A DNA stretch of 23,341 bases from a virus. Below the pieces are notes generated by a model. The model did not search any database. It had not been told where the DNA came from and saw nothing but the letters and a program-made list of their open reading frames with translations. The position numbers and the translations under genes are program-made. Below, one piece after another: positions 4,035 to 23,341 of this stretch. Positions within the stretch are counted from its first letter, which is position 1, and each line of letters opens with the position of its first letter. The DNA lies in IMG/VR virus record IMGVR_UViG_3300017776_000194, positions 1-23,341 of that record; one strand, given 5' to 3'.

Positions 4035-4535
4035 GTGGATAAAAATAAAGTATTATCATTATTAGCTGAATACCATAATAAATGGATTTCAAATGTTGAT
4101 GCTTTAATAAATGATGAAAACATAGATGCAGAAGATATAGTACAAGATATGTATTTAAAAATTCATGGTTCAAAAGATGAAGTAATTAAAAAAGCAATAC
4201 AAAACAATAAACCACATATTGGATATGTGAATAAAATTTTGTACACTATGTATTTAAATGCACAAAAACAAGAAAGCTTAAAAACAGAATTAAAAGATAA
4301 CCATACAATAGAAACTAAAGAACCTGAAATAAACAAATTCAATATAGAAAAGAAGATAGATGAAATAGTAAATTCTTTTTATTGGTTTGATAGAAAACTA
4401 TTTAATTTATACAGAAAGGAATTTCACACAATTAGAAGCTTAAGTAAAGCAACTAAAATTAGTCATGTAGTAGTACAAAACACCATAAGCAAGTGTAAAA
4501 AAAAAATTAAAAGAAAATTAAAAAATGAAATCTAA
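4035..4535 (+). CDS. Phage sigma-70-family-like factor
   Basis: GTG is the only usable start: an in-frame stop lies 15 nt upstream (the TAG ending the previous gene) and no other start codon lies between. Residues 30-44 (IDAEDIVQDMYLKIH) match the region 2 signature of ECF-type sigma factors (x-AEDIVQDxxLxL). The C-terminal 40 residues (about 122-166) form a region-4-like helix-turn-helix (LYRKEFHTIRSLSKATKIS, then VVVQNTISKCKKKIKRKL). The middle is a variable linker. At 166 residues it is ECF-sized. It overlaps the next gene by 11 nt. It likely redirects host RNA polymerase to phage promoters; the repeated 37-bp element at 6528 and 15174 is a possible target. A role without sigma activity cannot be excluded. 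Confidence 0.7.
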   Translation: MDKNKVLSLLAEYHNKWISNVDALINDENIDAEDIVQDMYLKIHGSKDEVIKKAIQNNKPHIGYVNKILYTMYLNAQKQESLKTELKDNHTIETKEPEINKFNIEKKIDEIVNSFYWFDRKLFNLYRKEFHTIRSLSKATKISHVVVQNTISKCKKKIKRKLKNEI

Positions 4536-4987: not shown

Positions 4988-5321
4988 AGAAAATTTAAAA
5001 AGTTGGACAAAAGGACAAAGCGGAAATCCTAAAGGCAGACCTAAAGGAAGTAAGAATAGAAGTACAGTAGTAAGAGAATTATTAGAAGTTTTATTAAAAA
5101 GAAAAAATCCATTAACTGGCAAAGAAGAATGGTTAAGTGCTGAACATCATATGACTATTGCAGTATTACAAAAGGCATTTGAAAAAGGTGATGTAAATGC
5201 TTATAATGCATTAATGAATTCAGGCTATGGTTCACCAAAAGATACAGTAGATTTAAACACAACAGAAACAGTTTCACATGACTTTAAACAATTAGTTAGT
5301 GCAATTAAGTTTAAGCAATAA
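4974..5321 (+). CDS. terS: Terminase small subunit-like protein (DUF5681 type)
   Basis: The N-terminus carries the hallmark KGQSGNPKGRPKGSKNR segment of DUF5681-type phage proteins, which lie next to and act as small terminase subunits in many phages. It is followed by a helical region (VVRELLEVLLKRKNP, then SAEHHMTIAVLQKAFEKGDVNAYNALMNSGYG) and a short tail. Two adjacent ATGs (4974 and 4977) could serve as starts; the second gives MANEENL. It overlaps the large subunit gene by 23 nt. The expected role is recognising phage DNA and loading it on the packaging motor. Confidence 0.8.
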   Translation: MMANEENLKSWTKGQSGNPKGRPKGSKNRSTVVRELLEVLLKRKNPLTGKEEWLSAEHHMTIAVLQKAFEKGDVNAYNALMNSGYGSPKDTVDLNTTETVSHDFKQLVSAIKFKQ

Positions 5322-6507
5322 ATACAAAATATTTGAAGAATCTGATTCACGTTATTTTATTGTAACTGGTGGTAGAGGTTCTGGCAAATCCTTTGCTATT
5401 AACACATTCTTACTATTACTAACATATGAAGCTGGGCATACTATTCTATTTACAAGATATACTTTGCGTTCTGCATCAATATCTATAATACCTGAGTTCA
5501 TAGAAAAAATAGAACTACTAAAAAAAACAGATGATTTTGTAATAACTAAAGATGAGGTATTAAACAAAGTAACTAAATCTAAAATACTATTTAGAGGAAT
5601 CAAAACAAGTTCTGGTGACCAAACTGCAAATCTTAAATCATTACAAGGAATAACTACATGGGTATTTGATGAAGCTGAAGAAATGAGTGATGAAGATATG
5701 TTTGATAAAATAGATTTATCAGTACGTCAAAAGGGTTTAGACAATAGAGTAATATTAATACTAAATCCAACAACTAAAGAGAACTTTATATACCAAAGAT
5801 GGTTTGAAGCAAGAGGTGTAGAAGCTGGAAGTAATATAACTAAAGATGATACAACCTACATTCACACAACTTATTTAGATAACATTGAAAACCTCAGCAC
5901 AAGTTATATAGAGCAAATAGAAAGAATGAAAGAAAGAAGGCCAAGTAGGTACAAGCACACTATACTTGGTTCATGGTTAGATAAAGCAGAAGGTGTAATA
6001 TTTACTAATTGGAAAATAGGAAAGTTTAAGCAAGTAGGTAAAAATGTATTTGGCCAAGATTATGGATTTAGCAATGACCCTACAACATTAGTACAAACCA
6101 ATATAGATAAAGAGAATAAACTAATTTATGTTAAGTTATGTTTTTACCAACCTAAACTCACAACAAGTGATATAGCAACACTAAACACTAAATTTGCAAA
6201 TAGAGATTTAATAGTAGGTGATTCAGCAGAACCAAGATTAATTTCTGAGTTAACAAGAAACAATAATATAGTAGCAGCAATAAAAGGCCAAGGTTCAATA
6301 ACTTATGGCATTAGCTTATTGCAAGATTATGATTTAATCATTGATGAAGAAAGTACAGATTTAATTAAGGAACTAAACAACTACTGTTGGTTGGAAAAGA
6401 AATCACAAACACCAATAGATAAATTTAACCATGCTATTGATGCATTAAGATATGCAGTAAGCTACCAATTACAGAACCCAAATAAAGGTGAATATTACTA
6501 TTATTAA
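5299..6507 (+). CDS. terL: Terminase large subunit
   Basis: A 402-residue packaging ATPase/nuclease (PBSX/Terminase_3 type). ATPase domain: Walker A GGRGSGKS (24-31), a coupling region around LKSLQGITT, Walker B WVFDEAEE (121-128) and the motif III-like ILILNPTT (152-159). The RNase H-like nuclease domain has its acidic residues in GQDYGFSNDP (D254), VGDSAEP (D308) and HAIDALRYA (D381). The start is GTG within the small subunit gene; downstream starts would cut into the lead before Walker A. The full set of motifs is present, so it should be active. It cuts and translocates phage DNA into proheads. Confidence 0.95.
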   Translation: MQLSLSNKYKIFEESDSRYFIVTGGRGSGKSFAINTFLLLLTYEAGHTILFTRYTLRSASISIIPEFIEKIELLKKTDDFVITKDEVLNKVTKSKILFRGIKTSSGDQTANLKSLQGITTWVFDEAEEMSDEDMFDKIDLSVRQKGLDNRVILILNPTTKENFIYQRWFEARGVEAGSNITKDDTTYIHTTYLDNIENLSTSYIEQIERMKERRPSRYKHTILGSWLDKAEGVIFTNWKIGKFKQVGKNVFGQDYGFSNDPTTLVQTNIDKENKLIYVKLCFYQPKLTTSDIATLNTKFANRDLIVGDSAEPRLISELTRNNNIVAAIKGQGSITYGISLLQDYDLIIDEESTDLIKELNNYCWLEKKSQTPIDKFNHAIDALRYAVSYQLQNPNKGEYYYY

Positions 6508-6527
6508 AAATAAATATTAAATTCCTA

Positions 6528-6564
6528 TATAACAAAGTCAAAAAAAAAACATTTATATAATATG
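6528..6564 (+). promoter_or_regulatory. 37-bp repeated upstream element, copy 1
   Basis: TATAACAA at 6528-6535, then a run of ten A (6540-6549), then CATTTATATAATATG ending at the ATG of a small frame. It matches copy 2 (15174-15210) without gaps, with 33 of 37 positions identical by eye. It sits in the only longer non-coding gap after the terminase gene. The 3' end resembles a -10 box (TATAAT), but this directly abuts the ATG, so a standard promoter would initiate downstream of that ATG. A phage-specific promoter or a translation leader is inferred. Confidence 0.55.
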
Positions 6565-6660
6565 AAGCTTATTAAAAAGATAATTAAATACATTAAATAT
6601 ATTGAACAAGAAAAATTTAAATTAAGTATTAAAGCATTTACACCAACTAACATTTTTTAA
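6562..6660 (+). CDS. 32-residue basic ORF after the repeated element
   Basis: A short frame (MKLIKKIIKYIKYIEQEKFK at the start) that begins at the ATG ending the first repeated 37-bp element and stops 1 nt before the next gene. It is basic and amphipathic. If the upstream element is a promoter with its -10 box next to the ATG, the transcript may not contain this start codon, so the frame may not be translated. No family recognised. Confidence 0.35.
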   Translation: MKLIKKIIKYIKYIEQEKFKLSIKAFTPTNIF

Positions 6661-6661
6661 T

Positions 6662-7306
6662 ATGGCAATTAAACTAACTATACCAGAATCACTAAATGAA
6701 ATTACATTAGGCCAATATCAAAAATGGCTTAAAATAACTGATGGCAAAGAAATGAATACTTTTTACCAACAGAAGATGATTGAGATATTTTGTAAAACAA
6801 GATTAATAGATGCTTTAAGAATGAAGGTAACAGACATTAATAAAATTACTTTTGACTTAAATAAAATATTTGAAGATAAACCAGCATTTAAAGATAGATT
6901 CAGAATGAATGAAAAAGAATTTGGATTCATTCCTAAATTAGATGATATGACTTTTGGAGAGTATGTTGATTTAGATAATTATCTTAATGAATGGGAAACA
7001 ATGGATAAAGCTATGGGTGTTTTATTTAGGCCAATATCATTTAAAAGAAAAGGGCAATACAGAATTGAAGAATATGAAACTGCAAGTAAATACAATATGA
7101 AAAATATGCCTTTAGATATTGTAATGGCTTCATTGCTTTTTTTTTGGAATTTAAAAAGAGAATTATTGAAACATATAGTGAACTATTTACAGAATCAGCA
7201 AGAAGTGAATTTGCCTCCACATCTGATAGCTTCATTAAAAAATGGGGTTGGTATCAATCCATTTACGGACTCAGTAAGGGAGATATTAGAAACATATCAG
7301 AAGTGA
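6662..7306 (+). CDS. Putative tail assembly chaperone, frame-0 product
   Basis: A 214-residue soluble protein. The conserved-looking core includes IPESLNEITLGQYQKWLKI at the start, LDDMTFGEYVDLDNYLNEWE in the middle, AMGVLFRPISFK, and MASLLFFWNLKRELLKHIVNYL near residue 155. It ends with SLKNGVGINPF and a short helical tail. I recognise this as the frame-0 half of a Bacteroidota phage pair in which the second half (see 7144-7404) lies in the -1 frame of the same region. The arrangement mirrors G/GT tail assembly chaperones, which escort the tape measure protein. It follows the terminase and leads the tail module. The chaperone role is inferred from architecture. Confidence 0.65.
   Translation: MAIKLTIPESLNEITLGQYQKWLKITDGKEMNTFYQQKMIEIFCKTRLIDALRMKVTDINKITFDLNKIFEDKPAFKDRFRMNEKEFGFIPKLDDMTFGEYVDLDNYLNEWETMDKAMGVLFRPISFKRKGQYRIEEYETASKYNMKNMPLDIVMASLLFFWNLKRELLKHIVNYLQNQQEVNLPPHLIASLKNGVGINPFTDSVREILETYQK
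7138..7144 (+). other. Candidate -1 slippery heptamer T TTT TTT
   Basis: A run of nine T (7137-7145) contains T_TTT_TTT in the frame of the 6662 gene: the codons are CTT TTT TTT TGG. After a -1 slip the next codon is TTG at 7144, leading directly into the KWGWY-containing frame. It lies well upstream of the conserved part of that frame. Transcriptional slippage on the T run is also possible. Confidence 0.45.
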
Positions 7307-13907: not shown

Positions 13908-14990
13908 ATGGAAATAATAGAACTTTTATTAGATGAAGAAAATGAAACTGCTGGAATAGATGCAATAAGTATTGTATCATCACCAGCTATTGAATCTGAT
14001 TTTATAAAACTAAAATCACAAGAAATCAAATTTGCAAAAGTAGATGATGAAAAGCGCATCTTAATGGGTGCTGCTTTAATACCAAATAAACCCATATACA
14101 GAAAGGATGAAAGAAAAGAATACTATGTTTATTTTTCTGCTGATACAGTACGTAAAGCAAGTGAGTTATTCTTTATGAATGGAAATCAAAACAATACAAC
14201 ATTAGAGCATAATATGGCATTAAATGGTTTAACTGTTGTTGAATCATGGATAGTAGAAGATGCTGAAATGGATAAAACTAAAAAATATGGTTTAGATGTT
14301 CCAGTAGGTACATGGATGGTATCTATGAAAGTAAACAATGATGAAATCTGGAATGAATATGTGAAAACAGATAAAGTAAAAGGTTTTTCAATTGAAGGTT
14401 ACTTTGCTGATAAAGCAAACATAAAAGCAAGTGTAGAAGATATTGCTGAAAAAGAAGCAGAAGAAAAAATAGAAGAAATAAGAAACCTATTTAAAAAAAA
14501 AAAGATTGAATTAGAAACTTACAATGATTATCCTGATGCAGTTAGTAATAATGCTAAAAGGGGAATAGAACTAAATAAAAAAGTAAATAATAAATGTGCC
14601 ACTTTAGTTGGCAAAAATAGGGCAGCCACTTTGGCTAAAAAAGGCAATATTTCATTATCAACTATTAAAAGAATGTATAGCTATCTAAGTAGGGCTGAAA
14701 CATATTATGATGAAAGTGATACTGAAGCATGTGGAACAATATCTTATTTATTGTGGGGTGGCAAAGCTGGTTTAAGATGGTCATTAAGTAAACTTAAAGA
14801 ACTTGATGAAGTTAATTTAAAATCAATGGTAATTGATGAAGATTATGCAGTAATAGATGATAGATTAGCATATAGCACACAAGCCAAAGCAGAAGAAATG
14901 GCAATCAATATTGGGTGTAAAGGTTTTCATACACATGAATTTGAAAATAAAACTTGGTACATGCCATGTGAAAAACATATAAATAAATAA
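13908..14990 (+). CDS. XkdF-like prohead protease fused to a second conserved domain
   Basis: Residues 1-170 form an XkdF/S78-type protease: MEIIELLLDEENETAGIDAI and SIVSSPAIE at the start, a strand region KRILMGAALIPNKPIYR, the likely catalytic His101 in TTLEHNMAL and Ser161 in VKGFSIEGYF. A charged linker (171-203, with four lysines at 196-199) leads to a second domain: YNDYPDAVSNNAKRGIELN, then ISLSTIKRMYSYLSRAETYYD and CGTISYLLWGGKAGLRWS (205-300). This DYP...CGTISYLLWGG module recurs in Bacteroidota phage head proteins and has no known function. The final GFHTHEFENKTWYMPCEKH carries His and Cys residues. It sits before the scaffold and capsid genes as expected. An A11 run at the linker is described separately. 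Confidence 0.8.
   Translation: MEIIELLLDEENETAGIDAISIVSSPAIESDFIKLKSQEIKFAKVDDEKRILMGAALIPNKPIYRKDERKEYYVYFSADTVRKASELFFMNGNQNNTTLEHNMALNGLTVVESWIVEDAEMDKTKKYGLDVPVGTWMVSMKVNNDEIWNEYVKTDKVKGFSIEGYFADKANIKASVEDIAEKEAEEKIEEIRNLFKKKKIELETYNDYPDAVSNNAKRGIELNKKVNNKCATLVGKNRAATLAKKGNISLSTIKRMYSYLSRAETYYDESDTEACGTISYLLWGGKAGLRWSLSKLKELDEVNLKSMVIDEDYAVIDDRLAYSTQAKAEEMAINIGCKGFHTHEFENKTWYMPCEKHINK
14493..14504 (+). other. A11G slippery run between protease domains (dnaX-like)
   Basis: Eleven A followed by G (codons AAA AAA AAA AAG, K196-K199) contain A_AAA_AAG in frame (14498-14504). A -1 slip gives GAT then TGA, so translation would stop at a 200-residue product made only of the protease half. The +1 frame also stops within a few codons (TAG at 14512-14514). 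Whether slipping happens is not shown by the sequence. Confidence 0.4.
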
Positions 14991-15139: not shown

Positions 15140-15173
15140 AAACAAGCATAATTAAAAAAAAATAAAAAAAAGG

Positions 15174-15210
15174 TATAACAAGTTAAAAAAAAAAACATTT
15201 ATATAGTATG
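15174..15210 (+). promoter_or_regulatory. 37-bp repeated upstream element, copy 2
   Basis: TATAACAA at 15174-15181, an A11 run at 15185-15195, then CATTTATATAGTATG ending in the ATG of the scaffold-like gene. It matches copy 1 (6528-6564) at 33 of 37 positions without gaps. It follows a 35-nt A-rich non-coding stretch and precedes the scaffold and capsid genes, which need high late expression. If TATAGT were a -10 box, the transcript would begin past the first ATG and translation could start at the ATG at 15223 (MLNKIKTI). Confidence 0.55.
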
Positions 15211-15855
15211 AAAGCAAATGATATGTTAAATAAAATCAAAACCATTATAGGTGGAATTGAACTAACTGAAGAAGTTAGAGAAATTGAATTAGCTGAAATG
15301 AAACTACAAAATGGAACAGTAGTAGAAGCAGAAGAATTTAAAAAAGGGGAAGCTATATTCATTAAATCAGATGATGAAAGAATTGCAATGCCAGTTGGAG
15401 AGTATGTTCTTGAAGATGGTAAGCTTTTAGTAGTTGAAGAAGAAGGAATTATAGCAGACATGAGAGACGTGTCTGATGATGTACCCGCAAAAGAAGAAGA
15501 TATGAAAGAAGATATCAAAGAAGAAATGGCTGAAGAAGCAGCTGTTTATGATTGGCAAGGAATGGAAAAGCGCATAAAGCAGCTTGAAGATGCGATTGCT
15601 GACCTTAAAGCAGATAAAGTTGATGCACCTGAAGATGTAGAAGCAACAGAAGAACTTTCTGAAGAAACTAAAGAAGAAGTTAATGCAGAACTTAAAGAAG
15701 AAATTAAAGAAAATGTAGATGTAGAACTTTCAGCTGAAGTTGCTGAACCTGTAAAACACAATCCAGAAGCTTCAAATGAAAGTAAGTTTACATTAAATAA
15801 AACTAATTATCCTAAGACATTACAACAAAGGATATATGACAAATTAAATAACTAA
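15208..15855 (+). CDS. Acidic head-assembly/scaffold-like protein
   Basis: A 215-residue, strongly acidic protein between the protease and major capsid genes. The N-terminal half has a small beta domain with the conserved-looking MPVGEYVLEDGKLLVVEEEG; the second half is a highly charged coiled coil (MEKRIKQLEDAIADLKADK, then repeated EE/KEE stretches) and the C-terminus ends TLQQRIYDKLNN. Composition, coiled coil and position fit a scaffolding or capsid-decoration role. I cannot tell these two apart. The start may be either the ATG at 15208 or the one at 15223, depending on where transcription starts. Confidence 0.65.
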   Translation: MKANDMLNKIKTIIGGIELTEEVREIELAEMKLQNGTVVEAEEFKKGEAIFIKSDDERIAMPVGEYVLEDGKLLVVEEEGIIADMRDVSDDVPAKEEDMKEDIKEEMAEEAAVYDWQGMEKRIKQLEDAIADLKADKVDAPEDVEATEELSEETKEEVNAELKEEIKENVDVELSAEVAEPVKHNPEASNESKFTLNKTNYPKTLQQRIYDKLNN

Positions 15856-15867: not shown

Positions 15868-16809
15868 ATGGCAACAAGTTTAACAACTACATATGCTGGT
15901 GAATTTAAAGATAAATACATTGCAGCAGCATTAACAAGTGGAAAAACACTTGACAATGGAGGTGTAACAATACTTCCAAACATTGCTTATAAAGAAGTAA
16001 TGCAAAAATCAGTAATGGGTGATGATTTAATAGTAAATGCTGGGTGTGATTACACTGATGCTGGTACTTTAACACTTACTGAAAGAGTTCTTGAAGTAGA
16101 AGAATTTCAAATTAACAAAACAGAATGTAAAAAGACATTTGCTCAATCTTGGCAATCTGCTGAAATGGGTTATTCTGTACAAAACCAAAGTTTACCAAAA
16201 TCATTTGCAGATTTTATTGTTCAGCAGTATGTGGCTAAAATTGCTGCTAAAACTGAAACTACAATTTGGAGTGGCGTTACGGCCAATCCGGGAGAGTATG
16301 ATGGATTTACAACTATTGCTGGTGCTAACATAGCTGATTTAGCTGGTGGTGCAATTGTAGTTGGAACAGATGTTACTGCTTCAAATGTAATTACTGAATT
16401 AGGCAAGGTGGTTGACCATGTTGCTACTAACACTCCTGCAATCTTAGATAAAGAAGATTTAAGAATTTATGTTGGAAACAAAGTATTTCAAGCTTATGTA
16501 AGAGCACTTGGTGGTTTTGCATTAACTGGTGGTGCTGGTACTGATGATAAAATGACACAATGGTATAATGGTGGTGGACTTACTTTTGATGGTATTCCAA
16601 TCTTTTTAGCACCGGGTATGCCAGCTAACAAAATGATGTGTACGCAAATTTCAAACCTATTCTTCGGATGTGGTGTTCTTGGAGATTTATCTGAATTAAG
16701 ATTAATTGATACTGCTGATACTTTAGGTGACCAAAATGTAAGATTTGTTGCACGTTTTAAAGCTGGTGTTCAAATCGGTCTTTTAGGTGAAGTAACTTAT
16801 TATACCTAA
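15868..16809 (+). CDS. Major capsid protein
   Basis: A 313-residue protein in the usual size range for HK97-fold capsid proteins. It begins MATSLTTTYAGEFKDKYIAA, has an early E-rich segment (RVLEVEEFQINKTECKKTF), an SWQSAEMGY segment and a long helix (LPKSFADFIVQQYVAKIAAK, about 110-129) consistent with the spine helix. Later come DLRIYVGNKVFQAYVRAL and, near the end, GIPIFLAPGMPANKM, typical of Bacteroidota phage capsids. No N-terminal delta domain of the HK97 type is visible, consistent with a separate scaffold-like gene. Followed by a G/C hairpin. Probably the most highly expressed gene here. Confidence 0.85.
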   Translation: MATSLTTTYAGEFKDKYIAAALTSGKTLDNGGVTILPNIAYKEVMQKSVMGDDLIVNAGCDYTDAGTLTLTERVLEVEEFQINKTECKKTFAQSWQSAEMGYSVQNQSLPKSFADFIVQQYVAKIAAKTETTIWSGVTANPGEYDGFTTIAGANIADLAGGAIVVGTDVTASNVITELGKVVDHVATNTPAILDKEDLRIYVGNKVFQAYVRALGGFALTGGAGTDDKMTQWYNGGGLTFDGIPIFLAPGMPANKMMCTQISNLFFGCGVLGDLSELRLIDTADTLGDQNVRFVARFKAGVQIGLLGEVTYYT

Positions 16810-19734: not shown

Positions 19735-20094
19735 ATGAAAACAATAGAAACAGTATACAATAAATTAAACAATGCTAAAACAAAATTAGCAACGCATAAA
19801 GTTGAATTAAGTTTGGTAGATGATTTAAAAGAATTGAAAAATAAATTTGATAAAGAAATAACACCAATTTATAAAGAAGTATCAAAAGAAAAAAACAAGT
19901 TAAGAGCAAAAGCAGAAAAAGCAGAACAAATTTTAGATAAAGTTGATAATCAAATAGAACAAAAATTAAAACTTGTTGAAAAAACTGCAAAAGAATTAGG
20001 TATAAGTGTTAGTGAAATAAATGATTATAAATCTTTAAAAAGTTTATTAAGCATTGTACCTGATATGAAAACAGTTTTTAAATCGGTTCAATAA
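19735..20094 (+). CDS. Coiled-coil protein, paralog A
   Basis: A 119-residue helical protein that begins MKTIETVYNKLNNAKTKLAT and continues HKVELS. The middle is a Lys/Glu coiled coil (about 30-85), followed by AKELGISVSEINDYKSLKS (85-103). It is a tandem paralog of the next gene: 22 of the first 30 residues are identical, and the C-terminal segment also aligns, while the middles do not. The start is 8 nt after the portal stop. Probably an assembly or neck-associated protein, but no function is known to me. Confidence 0.65.
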   Translation: MKTIETVYNKLNNAKTKLATHKVELSLVDDLKELKNKFDKEITPIYKEVSKEKNKLRAKAEKAEQILDKVDNQIEQKLKLVEKTAKELGISVSEINDYKSLKSLLSIVPDMKTVFKSVQ

Positions 20095-20107: not shown

Positions 20108-20524
20108 ATGAAAACAATAGAAACAGTATATAGCAAACTAAATTCAGATAAAACTGAATTAGGTACACATAAAGTTGAATTATCAGTAGCAAGTGACATA
20201 AAAAAAGCAATAAAAGCTTTGATTAAACAAGAAAAAGAAATGGACAGAGCAAAAGCTGAAATGGATAAAGCTATTAATTTATTAACACAAGCAAAAAAAC
20301 AATCTGAATCAGTTTATGAAAAATATAAAGCTGGTATATCTGGCCAACTTTCAATTAACCCTTTTACAGTTTTAAAAGAAGCAAGAGCAATAGCAAAAGA
20401 TTTAGGTATTAATGTAAGTGCTATAAAAGATTTTGATACTTTAGAATCAGATATTGGATTTAATGAAGATTTAAAAAAGAAAGTAGAACAAGATAGAGAT
20501 GAACTTGAAAAATTAATAAAATAA
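20108..20524 (+). CDS. Coiled-coil protein, paralog B
   Basis: A 138-residue protein, paralog of the preceding gene. It starts MKTIETVYSKLNSDKTELGT and continues HKVELSVASD, has a basic coiled coil (about 33-75), a Pro-containing break (GQLSINPFTVLKEA) and AKDLGINVSAIKDFDTLES (96-114). A final charged helix ends it. The conserved ends with a replaced middle suggest that the ends bind a common partner and the middle differs in length or contact. It is 13 nt after paralog A and 7 nt before the connector gene. Confidence 0.65.
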   Translation: MKTIETVYSKLNSDKTELGTHKVELSVASDIKKAIKALIKQEKEMDRAKAEMDKAINLLTQAKKQSESVYEKYKAGISGQLSINPFTVLKEARAIAKDLGINVSAIKDFDTLESDIGFNEDLKKKVEQDRDELEKLIK

Positions 20525-21058: not shown

Positions 21059-21961
21059 ATGTCAGATTTTGGTAAAATATATGAAAGTTCTTATTGGGGT
21101 GTTGGTGTTTGTGATAATACTATTGGATGGGGTTCAATATATAAATCAATAGCAAACTGTACTGATGCTTCTTTCAGTTATGCTGAATCAAGTTATGCAA
21201 CAAATGGTACAGACCCTACACCAACTATTACTGGTGATGCTGGAGGTACTTTTACTGCATCTCCTGAAGGTTTAAGTATTAATTCATCAACTGGTGAAAT
21301 AACATTATCAACATCAAGTATAAATTCATATACAGTAAGATATACATTACCAGATGCAACATTTGCAGAACAATCATTAGGCATTACTGCCCCAGCTTTC
21401 ACAAACACAAGTAGTTTTACATTTGATGGGGTGAATGACTACTTTAGTGCTGGAAATCCAACAGCATTACAAATTACTGGAGCAATTACTTTTTCAAGTT
21501 GGATAAAAACATCAAGTGCAACTTATCAATTAATTATTAGTAAAGATGATGTTACAAATAGATGTTATAATTTTGGCTTTTTAAATAACGGTGAAGTATA
21601 TGGTCAAGTTTTTAGTTCTGGAAGTGCTACAACAGTACAAACAGCAACAACTTGGAAAGATGGAAACTGGCACCATATTGCTTTTGTCTATATACCATCA
21701 ACATCTATACAAATCTACGTTGATGGAAGTAGTCAAATTTTATCAACATCAAGTATACCAGCTTCAATAGATAATGACCCAGCAGATTTTAATATTGGTA
21801 GAAGAAGTGATGGAGCAAGATATTTTTCTGGTAATATAGATGAAGTAGCTATCTGGAATAGTGCTTTAACAAGTGGAAATATTAGTACAATTTATGGTTC
21901 GGGAACTCCAAGTGATTTATCAACATTAAATCCATTAGCTTGGTATAGAATGGGTGATTAA
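21059..21961 (+). CDS. LamG/ConA-like tail fibre or receptor-binding protein
   Basis: A 300-residue protein. The first 40 residues ([20 protein letters not shown]) are a likely virion-attachment part. Residues 50-115 resemble an Ig-like (He_PIG/cadherin-like) domain, with [14 protein letters not shown] and [10 protein letters not shown]. Residues about 119-285 form a LamG-type jelly roll: [45 protein letters not shown] and [17 protein letters not shown]. The end is PLAWYRMGD. LamG domains bind glycans, so recognition of host surface sugars is inferred. The domain is a close relative of the second LamG unit in the next gene. Confidence 0.75.
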
Positions 21962-21983: not shown

Positions 21984-23341
21984 ATGGCAACAGAATTTAT
22001 ATCAAATAGTTGGCTTATGCCAGAAAATAGCAATCAGGATAAACTTGCTAACTACTCTTTAACATTTGATGCTGCAAGTAGTAACTATATTAATCTATAC
22101 AATGGAACTGTTGCAAATTTACCTTCTCAATTTAATATAGGTGCTTCAGATTCATATAGTTTTAGTTTTTGGATTAAAAGTAATGTAACTACAAGTAATA
22201 ATTTCTTTTATACTCAAAGAGGGTCAGCGCCTTATTTAAGATTTTACACAACCTATGTTGGTGGTGATGATAGTTATAGAGCATATTTTACAGTCAGAGA
22301 TGATTCATATGTAGAGGTTAGCGAGAATTCAGATGCTACAAACATAGTTAATAGGAATCAATGGAATCATATTGTAGGTGTTATTGATAGGGCAGCTTCA
22401 AAACTTTATGTATATGTAAATGGAGTAGTGACTGGAACTGGAACAAGTTTAGGTTCATTAGGCGCTATAACACAAATAACAGATGCTGCAATCGGGGGTG
22501 ACCCTTATCCATCTGGTTCAATAAGGTTTGAGTTTGATGGAGAAATAAGCAGTTCATCAATATTTGATTATGCTCTTTCAGCATCACAAGTCACACAATT
22601 GTATGGAACAGGTTCAGCTATTGGCAACCCTATGGCAATAACAAACGGAAGAAAACCAGTTGCATATTACCCACTTTCAAATGCTGGATTTAACGGTGAG
22701 TTTTTAGCAAGTAATGGAGCAGAACAAGATTATGTATTTTCATTTGATGGGAGTAATGATTATATTACTTGTGGAAATCCAACAGAATTACAAATTACTG
22801 GACAACTCACTCTTTCTTTATGGTTTAAAACAAGCACAACACCAGCAGCAAATAAATATTTAATATCAAAGGGAACAGGTTCATATACTCAAAGAAATTT
22901 TGGTATTTGGCAAAGTAACACAAATACTATAAGAGCATTTATAAACGGAGTTGGAGCTGGTGTTACATCTCCTTTATCATATGCAGATGGTAATTGGCAT
23001 CACCTTGCAGTTACATATACTCCAAGTACTTCTTTAATTTTATATATAGATGGCTCTGCAGTTGATACAAATACGTCATCAATTCCAGCGGCAATAAATA
23101 ATAACACTTCAGATTTTGAGATAGGTAGATGGGTTAGTGATTATTGGACAGGAAATATGAATAATGTATCAATATTCAATACAGCTCTACCAGCAACAGG
23201 AACAGAATCTGTTGAATCTTTATACAACTACGGTACTCCGCCAAATATAGCTTCTTATAGTGGTTTACAGGGATGGTGGGAATTAGATGCTTCATCAACT
23301 TTTGATGGTTCTAATTGGAGTATTCCAGATGCTTCAAGTAA
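21984..23341 (+). CDS. Double LamG-domain tail protein (3' end cut off)
   Basis: The frame from ATG 21984 stays open to the window edge (452 codons), so the gene is incomplete. After a short lead (MATEFISNSWLMPENS) it has a first LamG unit (about 28-215: YSLTFDAASSNYINL, FSFWIKSNV, NQWNHIVGVIDR, KLYVYVNGVV, FDGEISSSSIFDYAL) and a second (about 250-415: FSFDGSNDYITCGNPTELQI, DGNWHHLAVTYTPSTS, LYIDGSAV, GNMNNVSIFNTALP). The second is much closer to the LamG of the upstream gene than to its own partner. Ends in a GLQGWWELD segment. Likely a fibre or receptor-binding protein. Confidence 0.8.
   Translation, partial: MATEFISNSWLMPENSNQDKLANYSLTFDAASSNYINLYNGTVANLPSQFNIGASDSYSFSFWIKSNVTTSNNFFYTQRGSAPYLRFYTTYVGGDDSYRAYFTVRDDSYVEVSENSDATNIVNRNQWNHIVGVIDRAASKLYVYVNGVVTGTGTSLGSLGAITQITDAAIGGDPYPSGSIRFEFDGEISSSSIFDYALSASQVTQLYGTGSAIGNPMAITNGRKPVAYYPLSNAGFNGEFLASNGAEQDYVFSFDGSNDYITCGNPTELQITGQLTLSLWFKTSTTPAANKYLISKGTGSYTQRNFGIWQSNTNTIRAFINGVGAGVTSPLSYADGNWHHLAVTYTPSTSLILYIDGSAVDTNTSSIPAAINNNTSDFEIGRWVSDYWTGNMNNVSIFNTALPATGTESVESLYNYGTPPNIASYSGLQGWWELDASSTFDGSNWSIPDASS

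Follow-up and report, generated by a model that had tools for sequence, protein, structure and literature searches.

The late promoters of phage T4 are marked by a TATAAATA-type box and depend on the sliding clamp. Phage phiEco32 encodes gp36, an ECF-like sigma factor that sends host RNA polymerase to a few late-module promoters, and the gp36 homolog of phage SU10 is annotated as an ECF sigma (PMC4281155; PMC5312081). In the open complex of Mtb sigma-H, a -35 GGAACA is followed by a 17 bp spacer and a -10 with G-11, T-10 and T-9 (PMC6411747), and a conserved CGT box is present in the ECF-type promoters known from flavobacteria (PMC9723704). The mRNAs of Flavobacterium psychrophilum have a median leader of 24 nt, with 5.5% being leaderless (PMC9723704), and in F. 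johnsoniae leaders exceed 10 nt in 87% of cases (PMC6847099). We found no description of phage ECF sigmas or of leaderless late genes in Bacteroidetes phages in the open-access literature that was searched.

Here we analyze a virus record of 23,341 bases, referred to in its entirety as the window, from a marine phage akin to Bacteroidetes phages. We consider it highly probable that two near-identical elements in this window are late promoters read by an ECF sigma of the phage itself, with transcription starting at, or within about 2 nt of, the ATG that ends each element.

Two copies of a 37-base element

Read directly, the first copy (6528-6564) is TATAACAAAGTCAAAAAAAAAACATTTATATAATATG and the second (15174-15210) is TATAACAAGTTAAAAAAAAAAACATTTATATAGTATG. 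The copies are identical at 33 of 37 positions without gaps, leaving 4 mismatches, and an ATG terminates each exactly, at 6562 and at 15208. According to the ORF list, they lie in non-coding gaps at 6508-6561 and about 15140-15207. Direct reading thus bears out an earlier note on this DNA, which had described such a pair of ungapped, ATG-terminated elements in non-coding gaps. Gene duplication was discarded as the source of the match, as the flanking proteins are unrelated and duplication is unnecessary to account for it.

A 22-base core, AAAAAAACATTTATATARTATG, searched with up to 3 mismatches, occurs at just these two sites in the window; shuffled sequence yields a mean of 0.02, and two copies in none of 100 shuffles. 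Because a 15-base core alone, with 3 mismatches allowed, is found in the window at chance frequency, the significance is carried by the long form. A further scan of the window separates the sites well: scored by their two boxes (see below), the copies reach 18.4 and 19.4 and the next-best site 11.4, and there are therefore exactly two copies in this genome fragment. The features of the locus are as follows:

4035..4535, + strand: ECF-type sigma factor of the phage (166 aa, start codon GTG), proposed to read both promoters
5299..6507, + strand: terminase large subunit, immediately 5' of promoter 1
6526..6533, + strand: -35 box TATATAAC of putative late promoter 1 (tail module), kept in 80/80 relatives
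6534..6549, + strand: spacer of promoter 1, 16 bp, an A-tract here; in relatives variable in sequence and fixed in length
6550..6557, + strand: -10 box CATTTATA of promoter 1; C(A/G)TTTATA in relatives
6562, + strand: predicted start of promoter 1, the A of the ATG (leaderless) or at most about 2 nt upstream
6562..6660, + strand: 32-aa ORF (MKLIKKIIKYIKYIEQEK...), which heads the tail transcript in the window's subclade
6662..7306, + strand: first gene of the tail module, 214 aa, phrog_32199
15172..15179, + strand: -35 box GGTATAAC of putative late promoter 2 (scaffold/capsid module)
15180..15195, + strand: spacer of promoter 2, 16 bp; a T-tract of equal length in relatives L129 and L130
15196..15203, + strand: -10 box CATTTATA of promoter 2
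15208, + strand: predicted start of promoter 2, the A of the ATG, with the geometry of promoter 1
15208..15855, + strand: scaffold-like gene, starting at 15208 and not 15223 (first ATG conserved)
15868..16809, + strand: major capsid protein candidate, 3' of promoter 2 (P12024S gp02 homology; phrog_11320)

Conservation and anatomy of the element

When IMG/VR was scanned for exact matches to the 22-base core, 27 loci came up, 26 of which carry the true element before the same two genes; several contigs among these loci hold both copies. Wider sets of relatives were gathered with the tail protein (80 loci, 56-100% identity) and the capsid protein (32 loci). Both boxes are present at 80 of 80 tail loci from IMG/VR, where the -35 is of the ATAAC type in 59 cases and of the ATATCA type in 21, and the scaffold-gene element is present in relatives wherever the scaffold start is. 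Conservation in relatives, which had been put forward as a check on the element, is therefore clear. The suggestion of an unusual promoter class opening the tail and scaffold/capsid modules is supported too, in the form of a conserved two-box element before the same genes.

In divergent relatives the element shrinks to a -35 box, (T/G)ATAAC, and a -10 box, C(A/G)TTTATA or CG(A/G)(C/A)TTA. We sorted the relatives into clades labeled A to D for this analysis, with the window in clade A. The -35 of clade D is TATATCA instead of (T/G)ATAAC. Clades A and C have a gap of 16 between the boxes and clade D one of about 15 (from TATATCA); clade B has 16 up to TACATTA or 18 up to CATTA, and its motif lies 2 nt nearer the ATG. 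Gap sequence varies freely (poly-A, mixed or poly-T) with its length fixed within clades, and the poly-A tract is dispensable, being replaced by poly-T at unchanged length in four loci (L113, L114, L129 and L130).

The letters that touch the ATG are the most variable ones across relatives (TATAGT, ATATAA, AGTAT, ATAATA, CTATT), while AAC and C(G/A)T stay. The earlier note had pointed to a TATAAT/TATAGT box abutting the ATG, which would leave the start codon upstream of the transcript. As a -10 box that candidate was rejected in favor of the conserved boxes, (T/G)ATAAC and C(A/G)TTTATA; since the latter starts 12 nt before the ATG, the start codon is not left upstream.

An AAC -35, a CGT(T) -10 and a rigid spacer of 16-17 bp, the marks of an ECF-type promoter, are found in the clade C elements, which read AAC-16-CGTTTATA, and in those related to Nonlabens phage P12024S. 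This two-box layout points to ECF-sigma promoter architecture. The window copies read AAC-16-CATTTATA, with G changed to A at -11 (CATT, not CGTT) and with spacing and register preserved, the ATG falling 12 nt after the C of the -10 box in both. Given the CATT of the window's clade and the shift in clade B, the exact start may shift by 1-3 nt from one clade to another. The clade C scaffold copy has intact boxes and an ATG 24 nt after the C, from which a 12-nt leader is predicted for that copy.

Genes behind the two copies

At about half of the tail copies in close relatives, the ATG of the element is the tail gene's own start (MAIKLNIPESL...). In the window's subclade the 32-aa ORF occupies this place, one base before the tail gene, and it is missing from relatives whose tail gene starts at the same ATG. 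Reassignment of the scaffold start codon to 15223, at which the earlier note had hinted, is neither needed nor supported. The first ATG is conserved, and at the tail copy it directly starts the tail gene in the relatives just mentioned. Where the window has its second scaffold ATG, at 15223, relatives have GTA or ATA codons (MKAQEV, MKANEV, MKANDIL). The product of 15868..16809 probably has the capsid role, judging by its position. Immediately before the scaffold promoter region, 13908-14990 encodes an XkdF-like protease with a C-terminal DUF3721.

Two repeats were also observed further along the window. The products of 19735-20094 and 20108-20524 share near-identical N-termini, MKTIETVY(N/S)KLN...THKVELS, and then diverge, which suggests a tandem duplication. 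A 96-base repeat (21416-21511 and 22737-22832, 77% identity) lies within two nearby genes; it is LamG-like (SFDG.NDYI.CGNPTELQITG), indicating duplicated domains in fibre-like proteins.

A phage ECF-type sigma factor

The phage sigma-like protein mentioned in the earlier note is the product of ORF 4035-4535, which its profile matches and modeled fold identify as an ECF-type sigma factor. A Pfam search of this product gave no sigma match, and NCBIfam profiles and fold comparison were needed. Full-length matches were obtained to NF058625 (E 3e-7) and TIGR02985 (E 6e-7), and together with TIGR02937 these cover residues 10-164 with E-values from 3e-7 to 9e-6. All scores fall under the curated cut-offs, so the protein is a remote ECF member. 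Its homologs match TIGR02937 in 35 of 35 cases and PHROG 1740 (sigma factor) in 34 of 35. Comparison of the window sigma with PDB sequences by phmmer gave chance matches only, and no relative emerged when bacterial genomes were scanned with the sigma profile.

The AlphaFold2 model (pLDDT 81, with a low-confidence linker at 84-99) contains sigma2 and sigma4 joined by a linker, with no sigma1.1 or sigma3, as in the ECF fold. Its top 13 Foldseek matches against the PDB are all ECF sigmas (E 1e-3 to 2e-2), including Mtb sigma-E, sigma-L and sigma-H, E. coli sigma-E, AlgU and SigW. Region 4 of the model fits that of sigma-E in complex with -35 DNA (TM 0.76, rmsd 1.8 A); the domains are arranged differently, which makes for a low TM over the whole chain. 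A full-length ECF match occurs once per record in 22 of 22 records of the group, and the sigma gene lies 5' of the terminase genes in every relative having that region. The start of the recognition helix follows the -35 type at 53 of 53 loci (ATAAC with SH or GH, n=38; ATATCA with SY, n=15), a raw association to which shared ancestry may contribute.

At the edge of the window, positions 2-385 encode a truncated protein of 127 aa that matches HTH models and, weakly, sigma region 4 (PF08281, E 1e-4; TIGR02937, weak, at 122-223), a possible second transcription regulator.

The start-codon register in Nonlabens phage P12024S

The nearest cultured relative is Nonlabens phage P12024S (capsid 27%, portal 32%, TerL 54%). 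Its gp33, annotated as sigma-70 region 2, precedes the terminase genes as the window sigma does, and the two sigmas show a distant likeness (pairwise E 3e-4). The next TerL relative, Riemerella phage RAP44, has a different gene order and no annotated sigma, and was left out of the further comparison. Among the database entries, the terminase match of OQ791282.1 (Shigella phage Henu10) has the same coordinates and scores as that of Riemerella phage vB_RanS_PT15, and the Shigella host stated for it looks doubtful.

Seven of the 59 P12024S genes (gp01, gp05, gp08, gp35, gp41, gp44 and gp45) are preceded by AAC-N16/17-CGTT with the ATG 11-12 nt after the C. These seven putative promoters all open late or packaging modules, at the head of the protease/capsid, portal, terminase and tail-side gene groups, the terminase one being intergenic, before gp35. 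The full pattern with an ATG at 11-13 nt was observed 9 times, where 0.47 would be expected and no more than 3 were obtained in any of 300 simulated sequences.

The register was counted over P12024S and related contigs, with CGT alone required of the -10 box and with an ATG that opens an ORF of at least 70 aa. In 46 distinct elements the ATG stands exactly 12 nt after the C of CGT, compared with a mean of 1.5 at other distances, and neither GTG nor TTG is found as a start at 12 nt (0 each). Spacers of 16 and 17 account for 19 and 27 of these elements, with counts of 0 to 7 at other spacers. Position -9 is always T though CGT alone was required, and in the 17-spacer elements positions -34 and -33 are 96% A. 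When the sigma-H geometry is laid on AAAACA-17-GTT, +1 falls on the A of the ATG. By this analogy, leaderless mRNAs are predicted to the base for the P12024-like subgroup, and to within 0-2 nt for the window. The register and the exclusive use of ATG would be consistent with a 5' end at the A of AUG.

Each of two small minus-strand genes of P12024S (2750-2980 and 5123-5365 of L146) adjoins a late promoter and has, on the opposite strand, TATATTTG, a box of the host type that overlaps the region of the late promoter. Early and late transcripts may run against each other at these sites.

A copy inside the sigma gene of clade C

Clade C carries a third copy, which lies inside the sigma gene, 5' of the terminase genes, and reads in codons TAT AAC GAT TCT TTA AAT AAA GCG TTT ATA TAT. 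In 14 distinct clade C sigma genes AAC is invariant, although it makes up 28% of Asn codons, and the CG is kept by means of GCG or TCG, which make up 5.9% of the Ala and 2.5% of the Ser codons, also at sites where Ala has given way to Ser. All six box codons have an invariant third base, as do 25% of the codons in the rest of the gene, and it is at the box codons that the gene's longest stretch of such bases ends. Strong in-gene copies include those at L091:183-221 and G008:9841-9880. An in-frame ATG after the copy would yield a 97-aa protein of region 4 only. The in-gene copy may serve to transcribe the terminase genes or to produce a shortened sigma. A terminase promoter such as those of clade C and P12024S was sought in the window's clade, and none was found above background.

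Other readings of the element

The element might instead be a 5' leader or translation enhancer (A-rich, S1- or Kozak-like) transcribed from a host sigma-ABfr promoter, TAnnTTTG, further upstream. Bacteroidetes have no Shine-Dalgarno sites and use A-rich contexts instead (PMC6847099), and at the tail copies of clades B and C TATATTTG or AAATTTG abuts TATATAAC on its upstream side, which would give a leader of about 33 nt. We nevertheless regard this explanation as unlikely. Scans found TAnnTTTG missing upstream of both window copies, of the scaffold copies and of those in P12024S. The sigma-ABfr box belongs at -7, and no TA(H)(H)TTTG lies near either window copy; a host promoter with a 37-nt leader was rejected for these two. 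A leader would also fit poorly with the exchange of poly-A for poly-T at constant length, with a clade C copy that retains rare GCG or TCG codons within the sigma coding sequence for the CG of its box, and with the intact scaffold boxes of clade C despite an ATG 24 nt away. The tail copies of clades B and C may have a second, host-type promoter overlapping the late promoter. At clade C loci (e.g. L068, about 5250-5290), we also observed a conserved terminator-like hairpin, GGTAGTCGGCAAAAGAGCGTTACCTACTTTTTTTT, directly 5' of the tail late promoter, running into TATATTTG, a perfect host -7 box.

It is less likely still that the promoters are read by a host ECF sigma rather than the phage protein. 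Several ECF sigmas are indeed present in flavobacteria, along with a class of ECF-like promoters that have a CGT box (PMC9723704), but the phage's own ECF sigma is encoded 5' of the terminase genes in every relative having the region, and its recognition-helix motif tracks the -35 type. Some other protein-binding site (an operator, packaging or recombination site), as two copies flanking the tail module about 8.6 kb apart might suggest, is very improbable, given that relatives carry 2 to 7 copies in the coding direction and, except for the clade C in-sigma copy, by gene starts, and that the element is non-palindromic and the start-codon register would serve no role there.

Proposed mechanism and comparison with known systems

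In the proposed mechanism, in which the copies are late promoters of a phage sigma, host RNA polymerase would transcribe the phage ECF sigma gene early in infection. The sigma would then bring host core polymerase to the -35 box, (T/G)ATAAC, and to the -10 box 16 bp on, C(A/G)TTTATA. Transcripts would begin on the A of the ATG or no more than about 2 nt from it, giving leaderless or near-leaderless mRNAs: a tail transcript from 6562 and a scaffold-capsid-portal transcript from 15208. The computation establishes the two copies, their conservation, the paired boxes at constant spacing, the sigma's ECF identity and co-occurrence with the element, and the sharp register of the start codon; we infer the binding of the sigma to these boxes, the late timing and the exact start.

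More broadly, and with somewhat less assurance, it seems probable that a Bacteroidetes-type siphophage lineage makes its late structural proteins from leaderless mRNAs, with a phage ECF sigma setting the transcription start on the very start codon of each late operon and one element thus fixing both the 5' end and the start of reading, and that one clade has an additional promoter in the sigma gene for the terminase genes. Leader-dependent initiation would then be bypassed in hosts without Shine-Dalgarno pairing. If leaderless, these mRNAs would represent a systematic use for phage structural genes in a phylum with only a small share of such mRNAs (5.5% in F. psychrophilum, PMC9723704). The analysis proposes, from sequence alone, a late-transcription switch for widespread and poorly understood marine Bacteroidetes-type phages, one that can be tested in cultured P12024S, where start sites are predicted to the base. 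Clade-specific pairs of sigma and promoter would lend themselves naturally to use as orthogonal expression parts in Bacteroidetes.

That a phage ECF sigma can have late promoters of its own is already known from phiEco32; new here are the lineage, the start-codon register and the promoter copy within the sigma gene of one clade. T4 gp55 likewise is a phage sigma directing late transcription, as cited in PMC5312081, but it is a reduced sigma with other promoters. The E. coli podophage phiEco32, with its middle/late promoters, is similar in having few phage promoters that open late modules and a phage-encoded ECF-like sigma. It differs in host phylum and in its motif, tAATGTATAtA, located 6-8 nt upstream of the start, and the available part of its description mentions neither a -35 AAC box nor a fixed start-codon register. 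The promoters of F. psychrophilum SM6 differ in serving cellular T9SS and stress genes, with 5.5% of mapped mRNAs leaderless. Bacterial ECF sigma promoters (Mtb sigma-H, GGAACA-17-GTT) have the -35 AAC, -10 CGTT/GTT, rigid spacer of 16-17 bp and G at -11 (PMC6411747) that the P12024-like elements also show; the system proposed here is distinguished from them by being phage-borne, by a -35 of ATAAC or AAAAC rather than GGAAC, by the CATT of the window's clade and by an ATG predicted to lie at +1.
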